Position numbers and translations under genes: made by a program
Assembly: GCF_002931235.1 (NCBI RefSeq)
Contig: NZ_PSTT01000100.1
Location: 1-64,000 of the forward strand
DNA length: 64,000 nucleotides
Source of the DNA: Subtercola sp. Z020
GTDB lineage: Bacteria; Actinomycetota; Actinomycetes; Actinomycetales; Microbacteriaceae
Direction of reading: 5' to 3'
In this document: positions 26,597 to 39,475 of the stretch, one piece after another
Layout of the letters: every line of letters begins with the position of its first letter
Numbering within the stretch: the stretch's first letter is position 1
The notes under the pieces: generated by a model
What the model was told of the DNA's origin: nothing
Databases searched by the model: none
The model's input: only the letters and a program-made list of their open reading frames with translations

Positions 26597-26617
26597 ACGG
26601 ACGGCGCAGCTCCACGC

Positions 26618-26673
26618 CTCAGAACCTGAACCATTCTGAGACGTCTCAACCGAGGCCCCTGGAGTCTCGGTTG
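26618..26673 (+). terminator. Two stem-loops after the glycan operon
   Basis: CTCAGAA/TTCTGAG (26618-26624 and 26634-26640) and CAACCGAG/CTCGGTTG (26647-26654 and 26666-26673) are two consecutive perfect stems 20-80 bp after the last gene of the operon. They probably end its transcription. Confidence 0.7.
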
Positions 26674-26775
26674 CCCATCGCTAGGCGGGCTTTGACAACT
26701 GATCCCGGTGAGGGTTGGGCTTTTGCGAGACACGCTGCCGGTCATCCCAACGAGTGATGTCTGCCCGAGCCGGCC

Positions 26776-28014
26776 TTGGGGATGCCGCTCGCGGTTAGAG
26801 TTGCGCGTGTGTTGGTCTGGTTCGAGAAACGCCCGCGCGTCACCGACGCGGGCGTAGCGTTAGCGGCGTTCATCCTCTTTGGTGCGGCGGATTTTGTGCG
26901 CGACGGTGCCGCCGGGATGCTGATCGATATCGTGTTTGCGCTCTCGCTCGCTTTCTGGCGGCGGATGCCCAGCCTGGGTCTTGCGATCGCATGGGTGGGT
27001 GCGCTGGTGCAGGTCGCGACGGTCGACGGGCTGCTGGTCGGGGACCTCCTCATCCTCGCCGCGGTCTTCGCAACCGGGCTGGCAGTGAGCCGCGTTGTGC
27101 GTTGGGCAGGTCTTATATCGAGCCTGATCGGGGGAGGCATCGCCGGCGCCCGCCTGATCCTGTTCGCTCCTCCGACGGGCGACGGCGCCGCCATCCCGAC
27201 CGACCCGGTTTCGCGGGGAATCTACTTCGTGATCGCGAGCGGGGTGATAGCGGCGGCCCTTACCCTGTTCTGGGCGCTGGGGGTATTGGTGCGAAACCGG
27301 CGGGCATCGGCGGTCGCACGGGCCGACCGTGACCGCGACCGCATCCTCGCCGAGGCACGCCTCACCCAGGAACGCGAACGTGCCCTGCTCAGCCGGGAGA
27401 TGCACGACCTCATCGGCCACGCACTCGCCGTCGTCATCGCCCAATCCGATGGCGCGCGCTACGCGAAAGCCACCAACCCGCAGGCCGAGACGACCGCCCT
27501 GGAGACAATCAACCGCACCGCCCGTTCCGCGCTCGAGGACGTGCACGAACTGCTCAGCGTGCTGCGGGAACCCGGAGACGCGTCGACCGCTGGCATTCGC
27601 ACGGGCGACCTCGACCTGCTCGTCAACAGTGTGAGGCAGGCTGGCCTCGAGGTCACAATCGCTGAGACGGGTACCCGGATGCCGCTGACCGCAGCCCACG
27701 ATCTAGCGATGTTCCGGGTGCTGCAGGAGTCGCTCACCAACGCCATCAAGCACGGCGGCCGAGGAACAGCAGCAACCGTAAGCGTCGACTGGGGCACGAA
27801 CGACGTGCGCTTCGGCGTCACGACAGTGGAGACATCCGGCGACGATCTGCAGGCCACCGCCCGGCCCTCGCTGGCCGGCCAGGGACTCATCGGAATGCGA
27901 GAACGGATGCGGCTCCTCGACGGAACCGTCGATGCCGGCCCCCGAACCGACGGTCAGCCCGGGTTCCGGGTCGATGCCCGCCTACCTTACCGGGCCACGG
28001 GAGTACCGCAGTGA
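26776..28014 (+). CDS. Sensor histidine kinase (NarL/DesK class)
   Basis: A 412-aa membrane kinase. Five or so hydrophobic segments fill residues 20-175, without a large outside domain; a coiled linker follows. The dimerisation motif LSREMHDLIGHALAVVIAQ places the phosphorylated His at about 210, and the ATPase domain shows LQESLTNAIKHGG and GQGLIGMRERMRLL. Small intramembrane-sensing kinases of this type often respond to envelope stress. A later GTG start near 26806 is possible. It overlaps the response regulator by 4 bp. Confidence 0.9.
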   Translation: MGMPLAVRVARVLVWFEKRPRVTDAGVALAAFILFGAADFVRDGAAGMLIDIVFALSLAFWRRMPSLGLAIAWVGALVQVATVDGLLVGDLLILAAVFATGLAVSRVVRWAGLISSLIGGGIAGARLILFAPPTGDGAAIPTDPVSRGIYFVIASGVIAAALTLFWALGVLVRNRRASAVARADRDRDRILAEARLTQERERALLSREMHDLIGHALAVVIAQSDGARYAKATNPQAETTALETINRTARSALEDVHELLSVLREPGDASTAGIRTGDLDLLVNSVRQAGLEVTIAETGTRMPLTAAHDLAMFRVLQESLTNAIKHGGRGTAATVSVDWGTNDVRFGVTTVETSGDDLQATARPSLAGQGLIGMRERMRLLDGTVDAGPRTDGQPGFRVDARLPYRATGVPQ

Positions 28015-28679
28015 CCGCGGCGATTCGGGTGGGACTGGCGGATGATCAGCCCCTGTTCCGCGCCGGGATAGCCATGGTCGTGAATTCCCAACCCGACATC
28101 ACCGTCGAATGGGAAGCGTCGAACGGTGTCGAAGCCGTCGAGCTCGCCGCATCGACCCCGGTGGACGTCGTGCTGATGGATCTCGAGATGCCCCGAATGG
28201 GCGGCATCGAGGCGATCACCCGCGTGCTGGCCTTACCGTCGGATGCCGACGCACCGCCCCGGTTCATCGTGCTGACGACGTTCGATCTCGACGACCGCAC
28301 CTTCGAGGCCATCAACGCGGGGGCCAGCGGGTTCCTCCTCAAATCCACCGACCCCGAATTCCTGCTGGCGGCCATCCGCACCGTGCATTCCGGCAGCGCC
28401 GTGCTCGCGCCGAGCGCCACCGCCAATCTCATCCGGCGGTTCGCCGCACCGCACAGCGCGAACCGTTCTCAAGCGCTCGACTCGCTCACCCCTCGCGAAC
28501 ACGACCTCTTCGACCTCGTTGCAGCGGGGCTGAGCAACGCCGAAATCGCCACCTCGCTTCATCTCAGTGACACGACCGTGAAGACCCACGTCAGCCGCAT
28601 CCTCACCAAGCTCGGCCTCCGCGACCGCGTGCAGCTGGTGATCTTCGCCTACGAGAACGGGCTCATCGGCACCGATTGA
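28011..28679 (+). CDS. NarL/LuxR family response regulator
   Basis: A 222-aa regulator with receiver domain (phospho-acceptor Asp57 in VVLMDLEMPRMGG) and a C-terminal LuxR helix-turn-helix (LTPREHDLFDLVAAGLSNAEI then VKTHVSRILTKL). It starts with GTG in a 4-bp overlap with the kinase. Its probable target is the ABC/lipid-carrier operon starting 107 bp downstream, where direct repeats are present. Confidence 0.93.
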   Translation: MTAAIRVGLADDQPLFRAGIAMVVNSQPDITVEWEASNGVEAVELAASTPVDVVLMDLEMPRMGGIEAITRVLALPSDADAPPRFIVLTTFDLDDRTFEAINAGASGFLLKSTDPEFLLAAIRTVHSGSAVLAPSATANLIRRFAAPHSANRSQALDSLTPREHDLFDLVAAGLSNAEIATSLHLSDTTVKTHVSRILTKLGLRDRVQLVIFAYENGLIGTD

Positions 28680-28700
28680 GAGCTGGGCGTCATCACAGCG

Positions 28701-28727
28701 ATGTACGCGGAAGATGGTCACATGTAC
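28701..28727 (+). promoter_or_regulatory. ATGTAC direct repeat, possible response-regulator site
   Basis: ATGTAC occurs at 28701-28706 and 28722-28727, spaced 21 bp start to start (two helical turns), in the short gap between the response regulator and the ABC operon. Tandem sites on one face of the helix are common for NarL-type dimers. No clear -35/-10 pair is visible. Confidence 0.45.
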
Positions 28728-28786
28728 TGATTCGCCGGGCACCGGCCCTTCCTTAGCGTGGAATGACCCACGAGAAGGAGCTTCCG

Positions 28787-29544
28787 ATGAGCGACGAACC
28801 AAGCACCAGAGTTGCCGCGGCAGCGGTCGGCGTCAGCAAGGTCTACGGCAGCGGCGCCTCCGCAACGATGGCGCTCGACGCCATCGACCTCGAGATCAGC
28901 AGCGGCAGCCTGACCGCCATCATGGGCCCAGTGGCTCGGGCAAATCGACCCTGATGCACGTGTTCGCCGGACTCGACACGGCGACCAGCGGGCGGGTCAG
29001 CATCGGCGACACCGACATCACTCACCTCGAGGACAACGCCCTCACTCTCCTCCGTCGTCGCAGTCTCGGGTTCGTGTTCCAGGCCTTCAACCTCGTGCCC
29101 ACGCTCTCGGTGTTGGGCAACGTGACGCTGCCGTTCGAGCTCGACGGGCGAAAGCCCAGCGTCGCCGAGTTGGCGTGGGTGCGGCTGCTTCTCAACCGGC
29201 TCGGTATCGGAACGCTCGAAGCGCGCCGCCCGCACGAACTCTCTGGTGGGCAGCAGCAGCGTGTCGCGATCGCCCGCGCCCTGGCGATGCGGCCGCAGCT
29301 GATCTTCGCCGACGAGCCGACCGGCAACCTCGACTCTCGTTCCAGCCGCGAAGTGCTCGGGCTGCTGGGCGACCTGACCCGCGAGTTTCAGCAGACCGTC
29401 GTGCTCGTGACCCACGATCCGGTTGCCGCCTCGCACGCCGACCGGGTGATCTTCATCGCCGACGGACGGGTGGTTCAGGATGTCGCGAAGAGCGACGCCA
29501 AGACGCTCTCCGACATCATCCTGAGCCTCGAGGTCGCGGCGTGA
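28787..29544 (+). pseudogene. ABC transporter ATPase (MacB/LolD type) with Walker A frameshift
   Basis: The ATG at 28787 follows GAGAAGGAG and starts MSDEPSTRVAAAAVGVSKVY, a normal MacB-type N-terminus. At 28927-28929 the Walker A codons are out of frame: the sequence reads IMGPVARANRP and stops at 28954, whereas inserting one C into the CCC run would give IMGPSGSGKSTL and join the rest of the protein. From there everything is intact: [16 protein letters not shown] (Q-loop), [15 protein letters not shown] (signature), [13 protein letters not shown] (Walker B), VTHD (H-loop). Either a real one-base loss, a programmed frameshift, or a homopolymer sequencing error. Without correction no ATPase is made. 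Confidence 0.9.
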
Positions 29545-30965
29545 TCGCCCTCGCCTTCCGAGAGCTCTGGCACGGCGGCCGCCAGCACACGTCGAGCCTG
29601 CTCGTCGCGTTCATCACGTCGGTGTTCGCCACGATGATGATCGAAATGGACATCGTGCTGCGCGTTCAGTCCATCGGCGGCCAGTTCATCCAGCACGGTT
29701 ACGTTGTGGCGCTGCTCGACGTGCTCGACCTGCTGTTCTTCTTCATCGCCGTGTTCGTCGCGTGCATCGTCACCGCGAACACGTTCGGCATCATCATGGC
29801 CGGCCGCGCAAAACACATCGCGCTCATGCGGCTGCTCGGCGCGTCAGCGAGCACCCTTCGCGGCGCCATTGCGATCGAAGGCGCTGTCGTCGGACTCGTT
29901 GGCGGCGTGCTCGGGCTCATTGTGGGACTGCTCGTTGCGCAGATCACGTACGGCGCCCTCGTCTCGTCGGGCACCTTCGTGAACGTGTCGATCGACACTC
30001 TCTCCCCTCTCCTCGTCGCACCGGTTCTGGTCGGCGTGATCAGCACCACGGGAGCAGCCTGGTTCGGATCCCGCAAGATTCTGAACGTCTCCCCCATCGA
30101 AGCGACCGGCGCCACACAGGAACCGAAAGCCGTCACCGCCAGCGAGATGCCCCGGCGGCTCCGCACCCTCGTCATCGCTGCCTTCGTCGGCGGAATCGTG
30201 CTGCTCATCGCCGGGGTCGCTGTCGGGCTGAAGAGCCCGCTCGGACTGCTCATCGCGGCCCCGGGCGGCGCGCTGAGCTTCGTCGGGTTCGTTCTCGGGT
30301 CGTCGTTCTTCATCCCCGCGATGCTCAGAGCTGCCGGCCGGCTCACCGGCCGGTCAACTCCGAGTGTGCTCGCCAGCGCCAACGCGTTGCGCTACCCCGC
30401 GCGGTCTTCGCGATCGACGATCGGGCTGGTCATCGGGGTGACGCTCGTGACGATGTTCACTGTCGCCGGGCAGTCGTTCCTCGCCGAGAGCGGCCCCGTC
30501 GCAGCTGGAGCAGAAGCAGCCGACGCAGCTGGCGACCAGGCCTTTCTGCAACTGACCATGGGCATCCTCGCCGTGCTCATCGGGTTCTCGCTCGTGATCG
30601 CCGCCATCGGGCTCGTCAACTCGCTCTCCCTCAGCGTCATCCAGCGCCGCCGCGAAATCGGGTTGCTCCGCGCCCTCGGGTTCACCAAGAGGCAGGTTCG
30701 TACGATGATCCTGGCCGAGAGCATCCAACTCACCATCGTCGGCGGAGCCACCGGCCTCGTACTCGGCGTGTTCTACGGCTGGGCAGGCGTCCTCACCGCG
30801 ATCGCCAGCGACCACCACATCGGCGGTCTATTTCTGCCCACGATTCCCCCGTGGATCATCATCAGCATCATCGCCGGCGCCATCATCCTCGCCGTCGTCG
30901 CCTCCGCCGTTCCCGCCCGTTCCGCGGTACGGGTGTCCCCCGTCAGAGCATTGGCCATCGAATGA
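29541..30965 (+). CDS. FtsX/MacB-like ABC transporter permease
   Basis: A 474-aa permease, starting at GTG 29541 in a 4-bp overlap with the ATPase frame. It has an N-terminal helix, a FtsX core with helices near 60, 115 and 155 (GRAKHIALMRLLGASASTLR), a second half with QRRREIGLLRALGFTKRQVR, and a C-terminal helix (WIIISIIAGAIILAVVASAVPA). The two REIGLLRALG-type segments mark a duplicated FtsX unit as in DevC/BceB-type exporters. With its ATPase it would extract or sense a membrane-bound compound rather than import a nutrient. Confidence 0.88.
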   Translation: MIALAFRELWHGGRQHTSSLLVAFITSVFATMMIEMDIVLRVQSIGGQFIQHGYVVALLDVLDLLFFFIAVFVACIVTANTFGIIMAGRAKHIALMRLLGASASTLRGAIAIEGAVVGLVGGVLGLIVGLLVAQITYGALVSSGTFVNVSIDTLSPLLVAPVLVGVISTTGAAWFGSRKILNVSPIEATGATQEPKAVTASEMPRRLRTLVIAAFVGGIVLLIAGVAVGLKSPLGLLIAAPGGALSFVGFVLGSSFFIPAMLRAAGRLTGRSTPSVLASANALRYPARSSRSTIGLVIGVTLVTMFTVAGQSFLAESGPVAAGAEAADAAGDQAFLQLTMGILAVLIGFSLVIAAIGLVNSLSLSVIQRRREIGLLRALGFTKRQVRTMILAESIQLTIVGGATGLVLGVFYGWAGVLTAIASDHHIGGLFLPTIPPWIIISIIAGAIILAVVASAVPARSAVRVSPVRALAIE

Positions 30966-31576
30966 TCCACATCCACACCGCCAGCCTCCTCGACCCCACA
31001 CCGCTTCTCGAAGGAGTCGGGCCATGGGCATTGGTCGTTGTCATGGCCATCGTCTTCATCGAGACCGGGCTGCTGTTTCCGTTCCTGCCGGGCGACACCC
31101 TCGTCTTCACCGCCGCCCTCCTCGCCGGGCCACTCGGACTGCCACTGCCACTGCTCGTCGTTGGCGTCGCGGCCGCCGCGATCCTCGGCGACCAGACGGG
31201 GTATCACATCGGCAAACCGTTCGGGCCGCGCCTCTTCAAGCCCGACGCGCGGATCTTCAAGACGAAGTACCGCGACCAAGCCGACGAGTTCTTCACCCGC
31301 TACGGCGGCCGCGCCCTCGTACTCGCGCGGTTCGTCCCGCTGGTGCGCACGTTCGTGCCGCCGATCGTCGGGATGTCGAAGATGCCGTTCCGATCGTTCC
31401 TCCTCTGGAACGGCATCGGCGGCATCGCCTGGGCGCTCATCCTCACCCTCGCCGGCTACTTCCTCGGCGGCATCCCGTTCGTCAGGGACAACATCGAAGT
31501 GATCGCCGTCCTCATTGTCATCGTCTCTGTGCTGCCGATCGTGATCGACATCCTCCGCCGACGCCGACAGTCCTGA
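30962..31576 (+). CDS. DedA family membrane protein (possible undecaprenyl-phosphate translocase)
   Basis: A 204-aa DedA/SNARE-associated protein with the usual features: ETGLLFPFLPGDTLVF, GDQTGYHIGKPFG, FTRYGGRALVLARFVPLVRT and FLLWNGIGGIAW. Members of this family have been shown to return undecaprenyl phosphate across the membrane. It starts in a 4-bp overlap with the ABC permease and shares an operon with PAP2 and UppP, which makes that role plausible here. Confidence 0.9.
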   Translation: MIHIHTASLLDPTPLLEGVGPWALVVVMAIVFIETGLLFPFLPGDTLVFTAALLAGPLGLPLPLLVVGVAAAAILGDQTGYHIGKPFGPRLFKPDARIFKTKYRDQADEFFTRYGGRALVLARFVPLVRTFVPPIVGMSKMPFRSFLLWNGIGGIAWALILTLAGYFLGGIPFVRDNIEVIAVLIVIVSVLPIVIDILRRRRQS

Positions 31577-31579
31577 CGG

Positions 31580-32362
31580 ATGCCCATGAATGTTCTTGGC
31601 GGATTGGTGCCGACCCTCGTAGCGGTGCTCCTGCTTGCCGCGATCGCGCTCATCGGGCTCACGGCGGCGCACGTGCCGCAAGCCACAGCACCGCTCTGGG
31701 CGATCCTCCGGGGTGCTACGCAACTCGCCGCCCTCAGCCTGGTGCTCGCCGGAATCCTGGGCAACCCGCTGCTCGTCACCGTAGGACTGATCGTCATGTT
31801 CGCTGCGGCCGTCCACACGGTCGCACGGCGCATCCACGCCAACCGGCAGCAGACCGCGGCCGTCGGCGCCGCGATGCTCGCCGGGAACGTCGCCGTGCTC
31901 GTCATCGTCTTCACCACGGGGGCGATCGAGTTCTCACCGCGCTACGCCCTCGCGATCGGCGGCATCGTCATCGGCAACACCATGAGCATCGCGACCCTGA
32001 CGGGGCGGACCTTCCACACGTCGGTTCGGGACCACTGGGGCGAGGTCGAAGGATGGCTCGCCCTCGGCGCCACACCACTGGAGTCGACCCGTCTGCTCGC
32101 CCGCACCGCCATCCACTCAGCCCTCGTGCCCTCGATAGACCAGACCAAGACAACCGGCGTCGTCGTGCTCCCCGGAGCATTCGTCGGTGCGATCTTCGGA
32201 GGTGCCTCACCCCTCGAAGCAGGCCGATTCCAGATCGTCGTGCTCGCCAGCATCCTGGCGGCTGGCACCATCACCGCCACCCTGCTCCTGCGCCTCATCG
32301 GCGCCGTCTCCCAGAAACCCGCACCCGAGATCTTCAGCCCACGGAAAGCCCGCACCACATGA
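31580..32362 (+). CDS. FetB/YbbM-like (UPF0014) membrane protein
   Basis: A 260-aa protein with about seven membrane segments. ILRGATQLAALSLVLAG, IGGIVIGNTMSIATLTG and LPGAFVGAIFGGASPLEAGRFQ match the UPF0014 permease family (FetB in E. coli, where it works with ATPase FetA in iron export). No FetA-like ATPase lies next to it. It begins three bases after DedA and overlaps the PAP2 gene by 4 bp. Its part in a lipid-carrier operon is unknown. Confidence 0.85.
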   Translation: MPMNVLGGLVPTLVAVLLLAAIALIGLTAAHVPQATAPLWAILRGATQLAALSLVLAGILGNPLLVTVGLIVMFAAAVHTVARRIHANRQQTAAVGAAMLAGNVAVLVIVFTTGAIEFSPRYALAIGGIVIGNTMSIATLTGRTFHTSVRDHWGEVEGWLALGATPLESTRLLARTAIHSALVPSIDQTKTTGVVVLPGAFVGAIFGGASPLEAGRFQIVVLASILAAGTITATLLLRLIGAVSQKPAPEIFSPRKARTT

Positions 32363-33102
32363 CAAAGCTCAGGGCGTTCCTTGCCCGTCTCAGCCCCACC
32401 GCGACACTCATCGTCATTCTGGCCGTCGGCCTGCTGATCGCGTTCCTCCTCAGCGTCGCCGTCGCTCAGATCTACGACTCGATCACCGACGTCGACGGCG
32501 TCTCAGGTCTTGACCAGCCCATTCTCAACTGGATGCTCGCCCACCGCTCCCCCGCCCTCAACAGCACCGTCACGGCGTACACGAACGTGGCCGGCCCAAT
32601 CGGCATGCCCATCATCGCCGTGCTGGCTCTTGTGACCCTCGGCGTCCGGTGGCGGTCGTGGACCCCGGTCATCATGATCATCGCGGCAGGCGGCGGATCG
32701 CTCCTGCTGACCATCTCAGGCAAAGACCTCATCGGCCGGGTACGCCCACCACTGAACGACGCCGTTCCGCCCTACGAGTACTCGCCATCGTTCCCCAGCG
32801 GGCACACCCTGAACGCCGTCGTCGTCGCCGGCACCATCGCCTACCTCCTCGCGCTGCACCAGAGCTCGCGCATCGCCCGCGCACTGACCATCGGCATCGC
32901 AACAGTCTTCGCCGCCACCATCGGTCTCAGCCGCGTCTTTCTCGGGCACCACTGGTTCACGGACGTGCTCGCCGGGTTCATCCTCGGACTCGCGTGGCTC
33001 GCGATCATCATCACCGCCCACCGCCTCATGCACATCATCCACGCCAGGCGACACGCCCTCAGACACCCCGCCGACCCGAACCCAGAATCGAGCACCCCGT
33101 GA
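32359..33102 (+). CDS. PAP2 family phosphatase (possible undecaprenyl-diphosphatase)
   Basis: A 247-aa membrane phosphatase with all three PAP2 motifs: KDLIGRVRPP, PSFPSGHTL and SRVFLGHHWFTDV. Four to six membrane segments. Enzymes of this type remove a phosphate from lipid pyrophosphates outside the membrane. The adjacent UppP gene, which does the same reaction with a different fold, supports C55-PP as substrate; phosphatidic acid or phosphatidylglycerol phosphate cannot be excluded. Confidence 0.92.
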   Translation: MTKLRAFLARLSPTATLIVILAVGLLIAFLLSVAVAQIYDSITDVDGVSGLDQPILNWMLAHRSPALNSTVTAYTNVAGPIGMPIIAVLALVTLGVRWRSWTPVIMIIAAGGGSLLLTISGKDLIGRVRPPLNDAVPPYEYSPSFPSGHTLNAVVVAGTIAYLLALHQSSRIARALTIGIATVFAATIGLSRVFLGHHWFTDVLAGFILGLAWLAIIITAHRLMHIIHARRHALRHPADPNPESSTP

Positions 33103-33935
33103 ACTTCCTGCACGCGATCATCCTCGGCATAGTAGAAGGACTCACCGAGTTCCTCCCCGTCTCGAGCACCGGCCACCTCACCCTCGTCGAAAAACTCCTG
33201 GGGCTGTCGATCGACGATCCCGGAGTCACCGCTTTCACCGCGATCATCCAATTCGGTGCCATCATCGCCGTCATCATCTACTTCCACTCCGACATAGCCC
33301 GCCTGGTCGCCGCATGGTGGCGAGGCCTCTTCAACGCGGAGGCCCGCCGAAACCGCGACTACCGGTTCGCGTGGTACGTCATCGCCGGGTCCATCCCCAT
33401 CGGCATCGTCGGATTCGCCGCGAAAGATGTCGTCTCGGGTGCCCTTCGGAACCTCTGGGTCGTCGTCGCCGGACTCATCCTCTGGAGCGTCGTCATGTTC
33501 ATCGCTGAACGCGTCGGCCGCAGAACCCGGCTCGAAGAGAGCCTGACCCTGAAAGACGCACTCATCATCGGGCTGTTTCAGTGCATCGCACTGGTGCCCG
33601 GGGTCTCACGCTCGGGAGCGACCATCAGTGCAGGCCTTCTCCGGAACCTCGACCGCGTCGCTTCGACCAGGCTCTCGTTCTTTCTCGCCATACCCGCCCT
33701 GATTGGCGCCGGCGCCTACGAGAGTGTCAGCCAGGCATCCGCGGTGAACGCCACCGTCGGCTGGGGAGCTGTCGCAATCGGCACCATCGTCAGCTTCATC
33801 GTCGCCTACGCCTCCATCGCGTGGCTGCTCCGGCTCGTGGCACGGCATCCGATTACCGTGTTCATCTGGTACCGGATCGCCCTCGGACTCATCGTCGCAG
33901 CATTCCTTGCCACCGGCGTGATCACCGCCACCTGA
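33099..33935 (+). CDS. uppP: Undecaprenyl-diphosphatase UppP/BacA
   Basis: A 278-aa UppP with both conserved motifs, EGLTEFLPVSSTGHL at about 13-27 and PGVSRSGATISAGLL at about 167-181. The enzyme turns C55-PP into C55-P, the carrier for peptidoglycan and other wall polymers, and its overproduction gives bacitracin resistance. Start at GTG 33099 in a 4-bp overlap with the PAP2 gene. It is the last gene of the operon and is followed by a stem-loop. Confidence 0.95.
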   Translation: MNFLHAIILGIVEGLTEFLPVSSTGHLTLVEKLLGLSIDDPGVTAFTAIIQFGAIIAVIIYFHSDIARLVAAWWRGLFNAEARRNRDYRFAWYVIAGSIPIGIVGFAAKDVVSGALRNLWVVVAGLILWSVVMFIAERVGRRTRLEESLTLKDALIIGLFQCIALVPGVSRSGATISAGLLRNLDRVASTRLSFFLAIPALIGAGAYESVSQASAVNATVGWGAVAIGTIVSFIVAYASIAWLLRLVARHPITVFIWYRIALGLIVAAFLATGVITAT

Positions 33936-33977
33936 CCCTCGCCTCCGCATCACGACGGGCTTCAGGTCGGCCATCGT

Positions 33978-34614: not shown

Positions 34615-34845
34615 GTGCTGGCCTTCTGATCGAGCGGCGCGGACTGCCCGCATACGTCATGGTAATAACGTGCGGCGAGATGCGGTTCCGTCCGACTCCT
34701 GAAACGTGCCGCGCCATGGTTCTACCGACCGCGATCGGATGACGCGCCAGGCATACGCAACGGTCGGATGGCGAGTCGATTGGCGGCCCTTAGGCAAGGC
34801 TCCCCACGCTGGCAACGCGAAGTGCATCGAGCCTATGGTGATCGC

Positions 34846-35583
34846 ATGACCCTCCCCACCGCGGATTCGGCGTTCGCGAACCAGCCCGACGAGCCCCACA
34901 CCGGAAGCCTCGCAGGCCGCCTGAACTGGCTGCGCGCCGGCGTCCTCGGCGCGAACGACGGCATCGTCTCCGTCGCCGCCATCGTCGTCGGGGTCGCAGG
35001 CGCCAGCTACTCCCCTCCCGCCATCCTTGCAGCAGGCACTGCCGCACTCATCGGCGGTGCCATCTCGATGGCCCTCGGTGAGTACGTCTCCGTTAGCAGC
35101 CAACGCGACAGCCAACGCGCCCTCATCGAGAAGGAACGCACCGAGCTGAACACCGACCCGGCCGGAGAACTCGCCGAGCTCGCTGGGCTCTATCAGGCCC
35201 GCGGACTCAGCGCAGAGACCGCCCTGCAGGTCGCCACCGAACTCACCGACCACGACGCGCTGCGCGCGCACCTCTCCATGGAACTCAACATCGACGAAGC
35301 CGATGTCGTGAGCCCGTGGCACGCCGCCGGCGCCTCAGCCCTGGCCTTTCTCGTCGGAGGCATCCTCCCGCTCCTCGCAATTCTCCTGACGCCCGAAGCA
35401 GTTCGCGTCCCCCTCACGTTCGCTGTTGTGCTCATCGCCCTCGCCATCACCGGCGTCATCGGTGCGAGACTCGGCGGCAGCCCCGTCGCACGCGCAACCA
35501 TCCGGGTGGTCATCGGCGGCGCACTCGCACTCGCCGCGACCTTTATCGTCGGCACCCTCCTCGGGACAAGCGGAATCGTCTAA
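34846..35583 (+). CDS. VIT1/CCC1 family iron/manganese transporter
   Basis: A 245-aa membrane protein: LRAGVLGANDGIVSVAAIVVG, ISMALGEYVSVSSQRDSQRAL, a charged cytoplasmic domain with EKERTELNTDPAGELAEL and three C-terminal helices. VIT family members move Fe2+ or Mn2+ out of the cytoplasm or into stores. Start at ATG 34846, which follows the family length; no strong ribosome site. Confidence 0.92.
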   Translation: MTLPTADSAFANQPDEPHTGSLAGRLNWLRAGVLGANDGIVSVAAIVVGVAGASYSPPAILAAGTAALIGGAISMALGEYVSVSSQRDSQRALIEKERTELNTDPAGELAELAGLYQARGLSAETALQVATELTDHDALRAHLSMELNIDEADVVSPWHAAGASALAFLVGGILPLLAILLTPEAVRVPLTFAVVLIALAITGVIGARLGGSPVARATIRVVIGGALALAATFIVGTLLGTSGIV

Positions 35584-35673: not shown

Positions 35674-35822
35674 GTGTCTCAGAAAGCTAAAGGTTTCTGA
35701 GACACCCGCTCCCCCAAGGAGTAGTCTGCATAATCCACGAGATGCCGCGGCTGGCGACTGTCTCGAAAACTCATCTTGCTCTCGGGCATTTCTCATGACG
35801 ACTTTTGAGACTTCCTGAGACA
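35674..35822. other. Orphan resolvase-type recombination (res) site
   Basis: In a gene-free gap, five copies of a half-site related to TGTCTC(A/G)RAAA occur: GTGTCTCAGAAA (35674-35685), its exact inverse TTTCTGAGACAC (35694-35705, eight-base spacer), TGTCTCGAAAAC (35759-35770), the inverse TTTTGAGAC (35803-35811) and TCCTGAGACA (35813-35822). An inverted pair followed by two further spaced pairs over about 150 bp is the layout of serine-resolvase res sites (subsites I to III). No recombinase gene is nearby, so it is either a footprint of a lost transposon or plasmid or a target used in trans. Confidence 0.65.
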
Positions 35823-35966
35823 TTCCGGCGACAAGGCACTCTGCGCGAAGGCGACGCAGCGCCGGGGGTCGGGCACCCGAGTGCGGCGGAGGCGCCAGTC
35901 CGACCAGCGCAGACACGAGGGGGGGGCGCACAGACCACCGGCCGGTGCGCCCCCTCGCGTCTCGGG

Positions 35967-36323
35967 CTAGTTGGCGGGCGGCGTGTAGAACTGCAGGTCG
36001 TTGCCCTCGGAGTCCTTGAACGGGATGATCCGGCCCCACTCGTGGTCACTGATCTCGCCGGTGAACGACACGCCCTTGCCCTTGAGTTCCTCGACCTCGG
36101 CCTCGAGGTCGCCGTCGGGCTGGAAGCTGATCACCGCACCACCCTCAGAGCGGGTGGTCGCCTTCTCCCTCGCGTTCAGGCCGATCGTCACACCGTTCGC
36201 GTCGACCTCCGCCCAATCCGGGCCCTGCTCGTCGACGTCGAATCCGAGCGCGTCCCGGTAGAACGCGACCGCGCGTGCCATGTCCTCGACGGGAACCCAT
36301 ACTGCTGCGACACCTGTAGCCAT
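35967..36323 (-). CDS. VOC family protein (glyoxalase/bleomycin-resistance fold)
   Basis: A 118-aa single-domain vicinal-oxygen-chelate protein: VEDMARAVAFYRDALGFDV at the start and IIPFKDSEGNDLQFY at the end. A GAGG ribosome site precedes ATG 36323. Such proteins work as dimers in metal-dependent isomerases, dioxygenases or drug sequestration; the ligand cannot be deduced. Confidence 0.9.
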   Translation of the reverse strand: MATGVAAVWVPVEDMARAVAFYRDALGFDVDEQGPDWAEVDANGVTIGLNAREKATTRSEGGAVISFQPDGDLEAEVEELKGKGVSFTGEISDHEWGRIIPFKDSEGNDLQFYTPPAN

Positions 36324-39085: not shown

Positions 39086-39475
39086 TTGTGCAAGGGCCCG
39101 GATGCCGCGTCCCTCGCCGTGGGCTTTCTCTGCGCGGGAGTGCTGATCATCGTCGGCGGCGCGGGGATCTCGACCGCGCTGGTGCTCGCCAGGATCATCC
39201 GGGGCCAACGGCCGGTGTATCGCGCCTACCGCCAGTACCTGGGGCGATCGATTCTGCTCGGTCTCGAGTTTCTGGTGGCGGCCGACATCATCCGCACGGT
39301 GGCGGTGACGCCCACGCTCGACAGCGTGGCGGTGCTGGCGGCGATCATTGTGATCCGCACCTTCTTGAGCTTCTCGCTCGAACTCGAGATCACGGGGCGG
39401 TGGCCGTGGCAGACGAAGAAGGCGGCGTCGGCGGAGGCGGACCCCGCCCTCGGCTCGGGCAACGCGGCGGCCTGA
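39086..39475 (+). CDS. DUF1622 family membrane protein
   Basis: A 129-aa protein with three hydrophobic segments, of the DUF1622 type: GVLIIVGGAGISTALVLARI, RSILLGLEFLVAADIIRTV and VLAAIIVIRTFLSFSLELEI. Function unknown. The frame begins at TTG 39086; GTG 39119 is an alternative. It is divergent from the sigma/Asp23 fusion. Confidence 0.8.
   Translation: MCKGPDAASLAVGFLCAGVLIIVGGAGISTALVLARIIRGQRPVYRAYRQYLGRSILLGLEFLVAADIIRTVAVTPTLDSVAVLAAIIVIRTFLSFSLELEITGRWPWQTKKAASAEADPALGSGNAAA

Follow-up and report, generated by a model that had tools for sequence, protein, structure and literature searches.

Resolvases are usually viewed as housekeeping enzymes of transposons and plasmids. Site-specific recombination sites that bound accessory genes are known from the pdif/Xer modules of Acinetobacter, in which the sites, of a 28-bp class, belong to tyrosine recombinases. 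As parts of PMC12217951 describe, cleavage by resolvases takes place at the central 2 bp of site I, with sites II and III helping synapsis, and resolvases of the Tn3/gamma-delta type strongly prefer two direct sites on one molecule, cointegrates being possible under special conditions; given that preference, two replicons would be expected to exchange DNA inefficiently. In Acinetobacter, replicons are known to swap DNA at their res sites (CinH-RS2; Kholodii 2001 and 2004, following the account in parts of PMC9501444), a process that appears there as the 'shuffling function of resolvases'. Parts of PMC7765201 and PMC12217951 describe the Tn402/Tn5053 transposons as 'res site hunters'.

The DNA analysed here, referred to as the window, is a stretch of 64,000 nucleotides from Subtercola sp. 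Z020 (contig NZ_PSTT01000100.1) that falls within a 66.9-kb contig (C145) of a 3.53-Mb genome in 166 contigs (G000). Judged by its sequence, the segment 35675-35823 is a genuine res region of a plasmid-type serine resolvase, orphan, and this complete orphan res is probably a joint left by exchange with a resolvase acting in trans. As far as the parts of PMC9501444 used here allow comparison, the likeness to the Kholodii type covers a serine resolvase of ~190 aa, a res of ~120-150 bp and, on this reading, exchange between replicons and recognition of foreign res. The present sites differ in being actinobacterial, from Subtercola and its relatives, with orphans outnumbering intact pairs (21 versus 14 of 39), with several sites on large, presumably chromosomal contigs and with seven of 12 genomes lacking the resolvase. 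Two hallmarks of the Kholodii type, one-sided homology that breaks at site I and a recombinant joint together with both of its parents (G002:C12), were found in relatives.

The Tn3/gamma-delta systems share the Resolvase N-terminal domain, and in them too the gene is preceded by a res that combines accessory sites with a palindromic site I, but the window holds no tnpA-type partner, its site I is a 30-bp palindrome with arms TGTCTC/GAGACA, and the site stands alone. Some resolvases of the family discussed below precede a Mu-C-terminal transposase and an AAA ATPase, as in the Tn402/Tn5053 transposons so far as the cited parts describe them, whereas transposase and ATPase are both absent from the window contig and no such element was seen inserted in the window res. 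Accessory genes bounded by recombination sites, including a toxin-antitoxin type module at G003:C8 and G010:C1, recall the pdif/Xer modules, with the difference that the sites here are serine resolvase sites of ~150 bp.

An earlier note on this DNA had described five related half-sites in paired inverted arrangement over 149 bp; all five are present at the positions it gave (Table 1), and the whole 149 bp is conserved in other genomes. The site I pattern was matched 14 times in 11 of 299 genomes of the taxonomic family, and the reversed pattern 0 times. Paired half-sites scoring at least 17 of 20 occur twice in the contig, against a mean of 0.01 in 100 dinucleotide shuffles; because the yardstick came from the window site, this test is informative only for the second match (26615).

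Table 1. Features of the res region and its surroundings in the window
Feature	Position	Strand	Basis or remarks
res site I (crossover site), 30-bp palindrome TGTCTCAGAAAGCTAAAGGTTTCTGAGACA, made up of TGTCTCAGAAA (35675-35685) and TTTCTGAGACA (35694-35704)	35675..35704	+	Aligns with site I in res regions that adjoin a resolvase; homology breakpoints of relatives fall here
Accessory half-sites, putative site II region (label by analogy with Tn3-type res): TGTCTCGAAAActcatctt... plus degenerate TTTCTCA; half-site TGTCTCGAAAA at 35759-35769	35759..35795	+	Conserved TGTCTyG-AAACTCATCTC block in an alignment of 20 res regions
Accessory half-sites, site III region: TTTTGAGAC (35803-35811) and TTCCTGAGACA (35812-35822); the res ends here	35803..35822	+	Resolvase start codon of relatives ~10 bp further on
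Expected start of resolvase gene, no resolvase remnant	35823..35966		Alignment scores within shuffles; no resolvase match in 1200 bp downstream
VIT1/CCC1-family membrane protein gene, left of the res	34768..35583 (start codon putative)	+	Pfam VIT1, E 1.6e-66; 87% DNA identity to G001:C2, where site I also follows
Glyoxalase/VOC-family gene, first to the right of the res	35967..36323	-	Pfam Glyoxalase, E 2.1e-16
Gene block: two-component system, ABC transporter, VTT-domain protein, UPF0014/FetB-like, PAP2, BacA/UppP	26732..33951	+	Common to relatives
Second, weaker res-like element: palindrome 26615-26643, TCTCA, then TTTTGCGAGACA ending at 26732	26615..26732	+	Between the end of left homology at 26597 (G011:C19) and the start of right homology at 26732 (G009:C6)

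A palindrome 91 bp past the stop codon of the VIT gene, which as RNA would fold as a hairpin, could in principle act on the VIT or VOC gene as an operator or terminator, and a conserved noncoding RNA or regulator site was the alternative against which the earlier note had set its own reading. No Rfam family, however, reached its gathering score in the window (0 matches), and the same sites adjoin unrelated genes elsewhere and precede resolvases, which leaves a regulatory or RNA role with hardly any credence.

Along its entire length, the segment 35675-35823 aligns with the DNA that directly precedes the genes of one plasmid-type serine resolvase family (~190 aa). The matching regions come from the same genus (G011, Subtercola boreus P27444), from another genus of Microbacteriaceae and from plasmids of Arthrobacter, Glutamicibacter and Cryobacterium. 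When 402 bp around the site were searched against the DNA of 60 relatives, the 149-bp layout reappeared, 73-74% identical, in G011, G009 and others, and the palindrome alone was matched in three plasmids, in each of which a 'recombinase family protein' starts ~130 bp after it. Alignments of 16 and then 20 regions showed the whole region to be conserved, including site I, the TGTCTyG block and a last half-site ~10 bp before the resolvase start, and in the 20-site alignment the accessory half-sites keep a conserved spacing downstream of site I. The earlier note had suggested looking for the same half-sites beside recombinase genes; in genomes and plasmids of relatives they were found there, with the resolvase starting ~10 bp past the res. 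A sequence-only profile (R1) built from the 20 sites matches the window at model positions 2-151 of 152, a match that is not independent, as the window is one of those 20 sequences.

The resolvase itself carries the Pfam Resolvase N-terminal domain (E 5.2e-43), and its nearest solved relatives by sequence are a DNA invertase and Tn3/gamma-delta resolvases (PDB 1gdt, 5cy1). Among 72,556 plasmid records, 77 contain a member of the family at E<=1e-50, mostly records from Clavibacter, Arthrobacter and Paenarthrobacter. From the anatomy of the site, a cognate resolvase would be predicted to bind and recombine the window res.

Profile R1 gave 52 matches in 16 of 60 genomes, comprising all 12 of the genus (Subtercola or what the taxonomy used groups with it, within Microbacteriaceae) and 4 of 48 others. 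Once 13 partial matches (fewer than ~130 model positions) had been dropped, 39 near-full-length sites were classified. An intact resolvase gene follows after ~10 bp at 14 of them, the layout of a serine resolvase res region that the earlier note had recognised in the window; a truncated or disrupted one follows at 4, and none lies within ~0.8-1.2 kb at the remaining 21, which include the window and some of which may hold decayed resolvase starts (G002:C139, G002:C245). The independent pattern scan of 299 genomes, with the palindromic double match in the window counted once, placed a resolvase at 6 of 13 sites (one cut short) and none at 7 of 13. Within the genus, a resolvase at >=65% identity is present in 5 of 12 genomes and absent from 7, two of which (G002, G006) are only 86-88% complete. 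At G001:C2:52190 the res is followed by what appear to be the first five codons of the resolvase (reading VRLLG) and then by unrelated sequence, and at G011:C26:518335 an intact resolvase has upstream DNA that keeps the accessory half-sites and has lost site I.

In G000, R1 matches nothing but the window site, and the genome holds no member of the resolvase family. The two full-length resolvases of G000 above the Pfam cut-off are 42% (the best match) and 36% identical, with unlike upstream DNA, and were rejected as close relatives of the cognate enzyme; they may act in trans on the window site. The earlier note's view that the gap holds no recombinase was borne out by tblastn, with no match for four resolvase queries in the window or for two in the 66.9-kb contig. 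When 35823-35970 was locally aligned with five resolvase genes, its scores did not rise above those of shuffled sequence, and a remnant to the right of the site was accordingly rejected. Since no cognate resolvase was found directly downstream, the window res is an orphan.

An orphan res can also come from gene decay, a process in progress at 4 of the 39 sites. A whole res-resolvase module would in that case have stood in the window, and its gene would have decayed or been deleted with no exchange at the site. Such loss in place agrees with the broken resolvases behind an intact res at those four sites, with the roughly five codons retained at G001:C2:52190 and with the motif GGCGACA, which lies immediately before the resolvase start codon in relatives and is still present at the window site. 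The window nevertheless shows no resolvase remnant past the start, and loss in place does not predict the common left and different right side of the window and G001:C2, so that this origin is considered rather unlikely.

The genes on the two sides of the site differ in whether relatives share them. To the left, the counterpart of the VIT gene in G001:C2 spans the ends of the C2 record, a 165-kb replicon of a congener; to the right, the VOC-family gene has no DNA match in the 12 genus genomes besides the window's own. Further left, window 26737-33938 matches G001:C2:12167-19370 at 88.5% DNA identity over 7.2 kb, and the block matches G009:C6 at 86-87%. In both relatives the block stops at site I right after the UppP gene, and in the window it continues past UppP into a DUF1801 gene, the VIT gene and the res site. 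Window 18546-26597 matches G011:C19 at 84%, and a different gene entirely lies left of the block in C2, G009 and G008. A DUF1622 gene occupies 39086-39475 of the window; DNA close to it is multicopy in congeners, with one copy ~250 bp from a res site in G011:C53.

The left end of the block coincides with the 26615 element; apart from it and the window site, nothing in the contig reaches 15 of 20 as a paired half-site. It was not detected by R1 and was therefore rejected as a full res and kept as 'res-like', and the block homology begins at its right end, not at the centre of its palindrome. With the window site at the right end and this element at the left, the 26.6-35.8 kb stretch has res-like sequence at both ends in the same orientation, and the element may represent a second joint of the same kind.

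Plasmids of Cryobacterium and Citricoccus carry a Tn402-like actinobacterial transposon, in which the resolvase is followed by a Mu-C-terminal transposase of 461-462 aa and an AAA ATPase of 268 aa, with mercury or VIT genes in front. Among the matches listed for VIT genes on other plasmids (8 records), only the Citricoccus one has a resolvase of the family close by. These arrangements bear on the possibility that the window site is a transposon relic, in which passenger genes (VIT and others), res, resolvase and transposase genes once formed a single res-resolvase-TniA-TniB unit whose right part was lost. The Citricoccus plasmid has VIT, DUF2231, resolvase, transposase and ATPase in one row, the Cryobacterium plasmid has mercury genes, the resolvase and then the same pair, and decayed transposase and ATPase remnants lie behind the resolvase in Glutamicibacter. 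No such transposase or ATPase is found, however, in the 66.9-kb contig or near the searched resolvases of the genus, and a relic leaves unexplained both the one-sided sharing up to site I in other orphan pairs and the three-way joint at G002:C12. A transposon relic is on these grounds unlikely.

Homology to the left and right of the site was compared among 45 sites (the 39 full-length ones and 6 res-like or partial ones). Several pairs have a common left side and differ on the right: G001:C2:12105 and G009:C6:168694 are 89.5% identical along the 1449 bp that lead to site I and unlike past it, G002:C12 and G009:C50 are 92.8% identical over 125 bp, and three G011 contigs are 100% identical over 105 bp, to the contig ends. 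The window and G001:C2:164636 likewise share the VIT gene (87%) and the same site I core and are different beyond. The left-sharing pair G003:C26 and C78, whose common DNA lies at unequal distances from the sites, is not a joint. Other pairs have a common right side and an unrelated left, as in G003:C8 and G010:C1:242649 (98% over 832 bp), G002:C12 and G010:C1:3706804 (~84%), G002:C134 and G006:C35, and many pairs in which the resolvase is common to both. The sites G003:C8:30439 and G010:C1:242649, from two species, are both orphan and have a PemK/MazF-type toxin gene directly to the right on the opposite strand. Because the shared side of the joint is the left for some pairs but the right for others, the reading of the res site as a transposon end was set aside.

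Fine alignment places the flank changes inside site I. G002:C12 is a recombinant with both parents represented, its left flank being that of G009:C50 and its right flank that of G010:C1:3706804, the two meeting at CCTAA in the middle of site I. Of 9 pairs subjected to a change-point fit, 7 break at -16 to +20 bp from the site I centre; the other two (G009C50/G002C12 and window/C2) have no usable change point, owing to a contig end or a gapped flank. In the window/C2 pair the 91 bp between the VIT gene and site I align only in their right part and the break was placed by eye. What looks like an exchange at the window site itself is read from one strain of the species.

The res copies, at 65-90% alike and ~150 bp, could act as short repeats, and homologous recombination between them might have made the joints with no resolvase involved. 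Breaks from such a process would be spread over the 149 bp, yet they cluster at site I in the 7 pairs above, and several joints share nothing on the other side of site I; homologous recombination is accordingly quite improbable.

Contigs C51, C52 and C33 of G011 end in the same exact 127 bp, stopping inside site I. Active switching in G011 was considered and rejected: three right sides on one left end do not amount to evidence of a mixed culture, as the left neighbour of the three contigs is missing from the assembly.

The earlier note had offered two origins for the site, a leftover of a lost transposon or a hotspot used by a resolvase from elsewhere. The second fits better and the first less well, given the one-sided homology breaks at site I between species and the absence of transposase and ATPase genes from the contig. 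In the exchange proposed here, a resolvase encoded on a plasmid or other replicon would act in trans, binding the half-sites and pairing the window res with another res copy, its own or a different one. Strands would be exchanged at the centre of site I, replacing the DNA on one side with that of the partner, so that one product would keep the resolvase and the other would be a complete res with another right side. The window site would be a joint of the latter kind, its left side, from the VIT gene to site I, being common to the congener replicon and its right side not. The positions of the breaks suggest exchange by a resolvase rather than by another route, and the orphan site may still be recognised by one.

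Exchange between replicons at res sites is already known, and no paper describing such joints at orphan res sites for Subtercola or other Actinobacteria was found in the PMC literature. In related species, sites of this kind mark joints where unrelated accessory gene blocks meet, and further genomes can readily be screened for them with the res profile combined with the site I break rule. A broader and more tentative proposal, held with somewhat less than even confidence, is that Subtercola and its relatives carry free-standing res joints of a cassette-like system, in which metal, membrane-stress and toxin-antitoxin blocks would be swapped at the centre of orphan site I by plasmid-borne resolvases, a serine-resolvase counterpart of pdif modules that would include the chromosome. 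If orphan res sites are exchange points for resolvases acting in trans, the resulting joints would be readable straight from sequence, and a resolvase-bearing plasmid could rearrange accessory DNA far from its own site.
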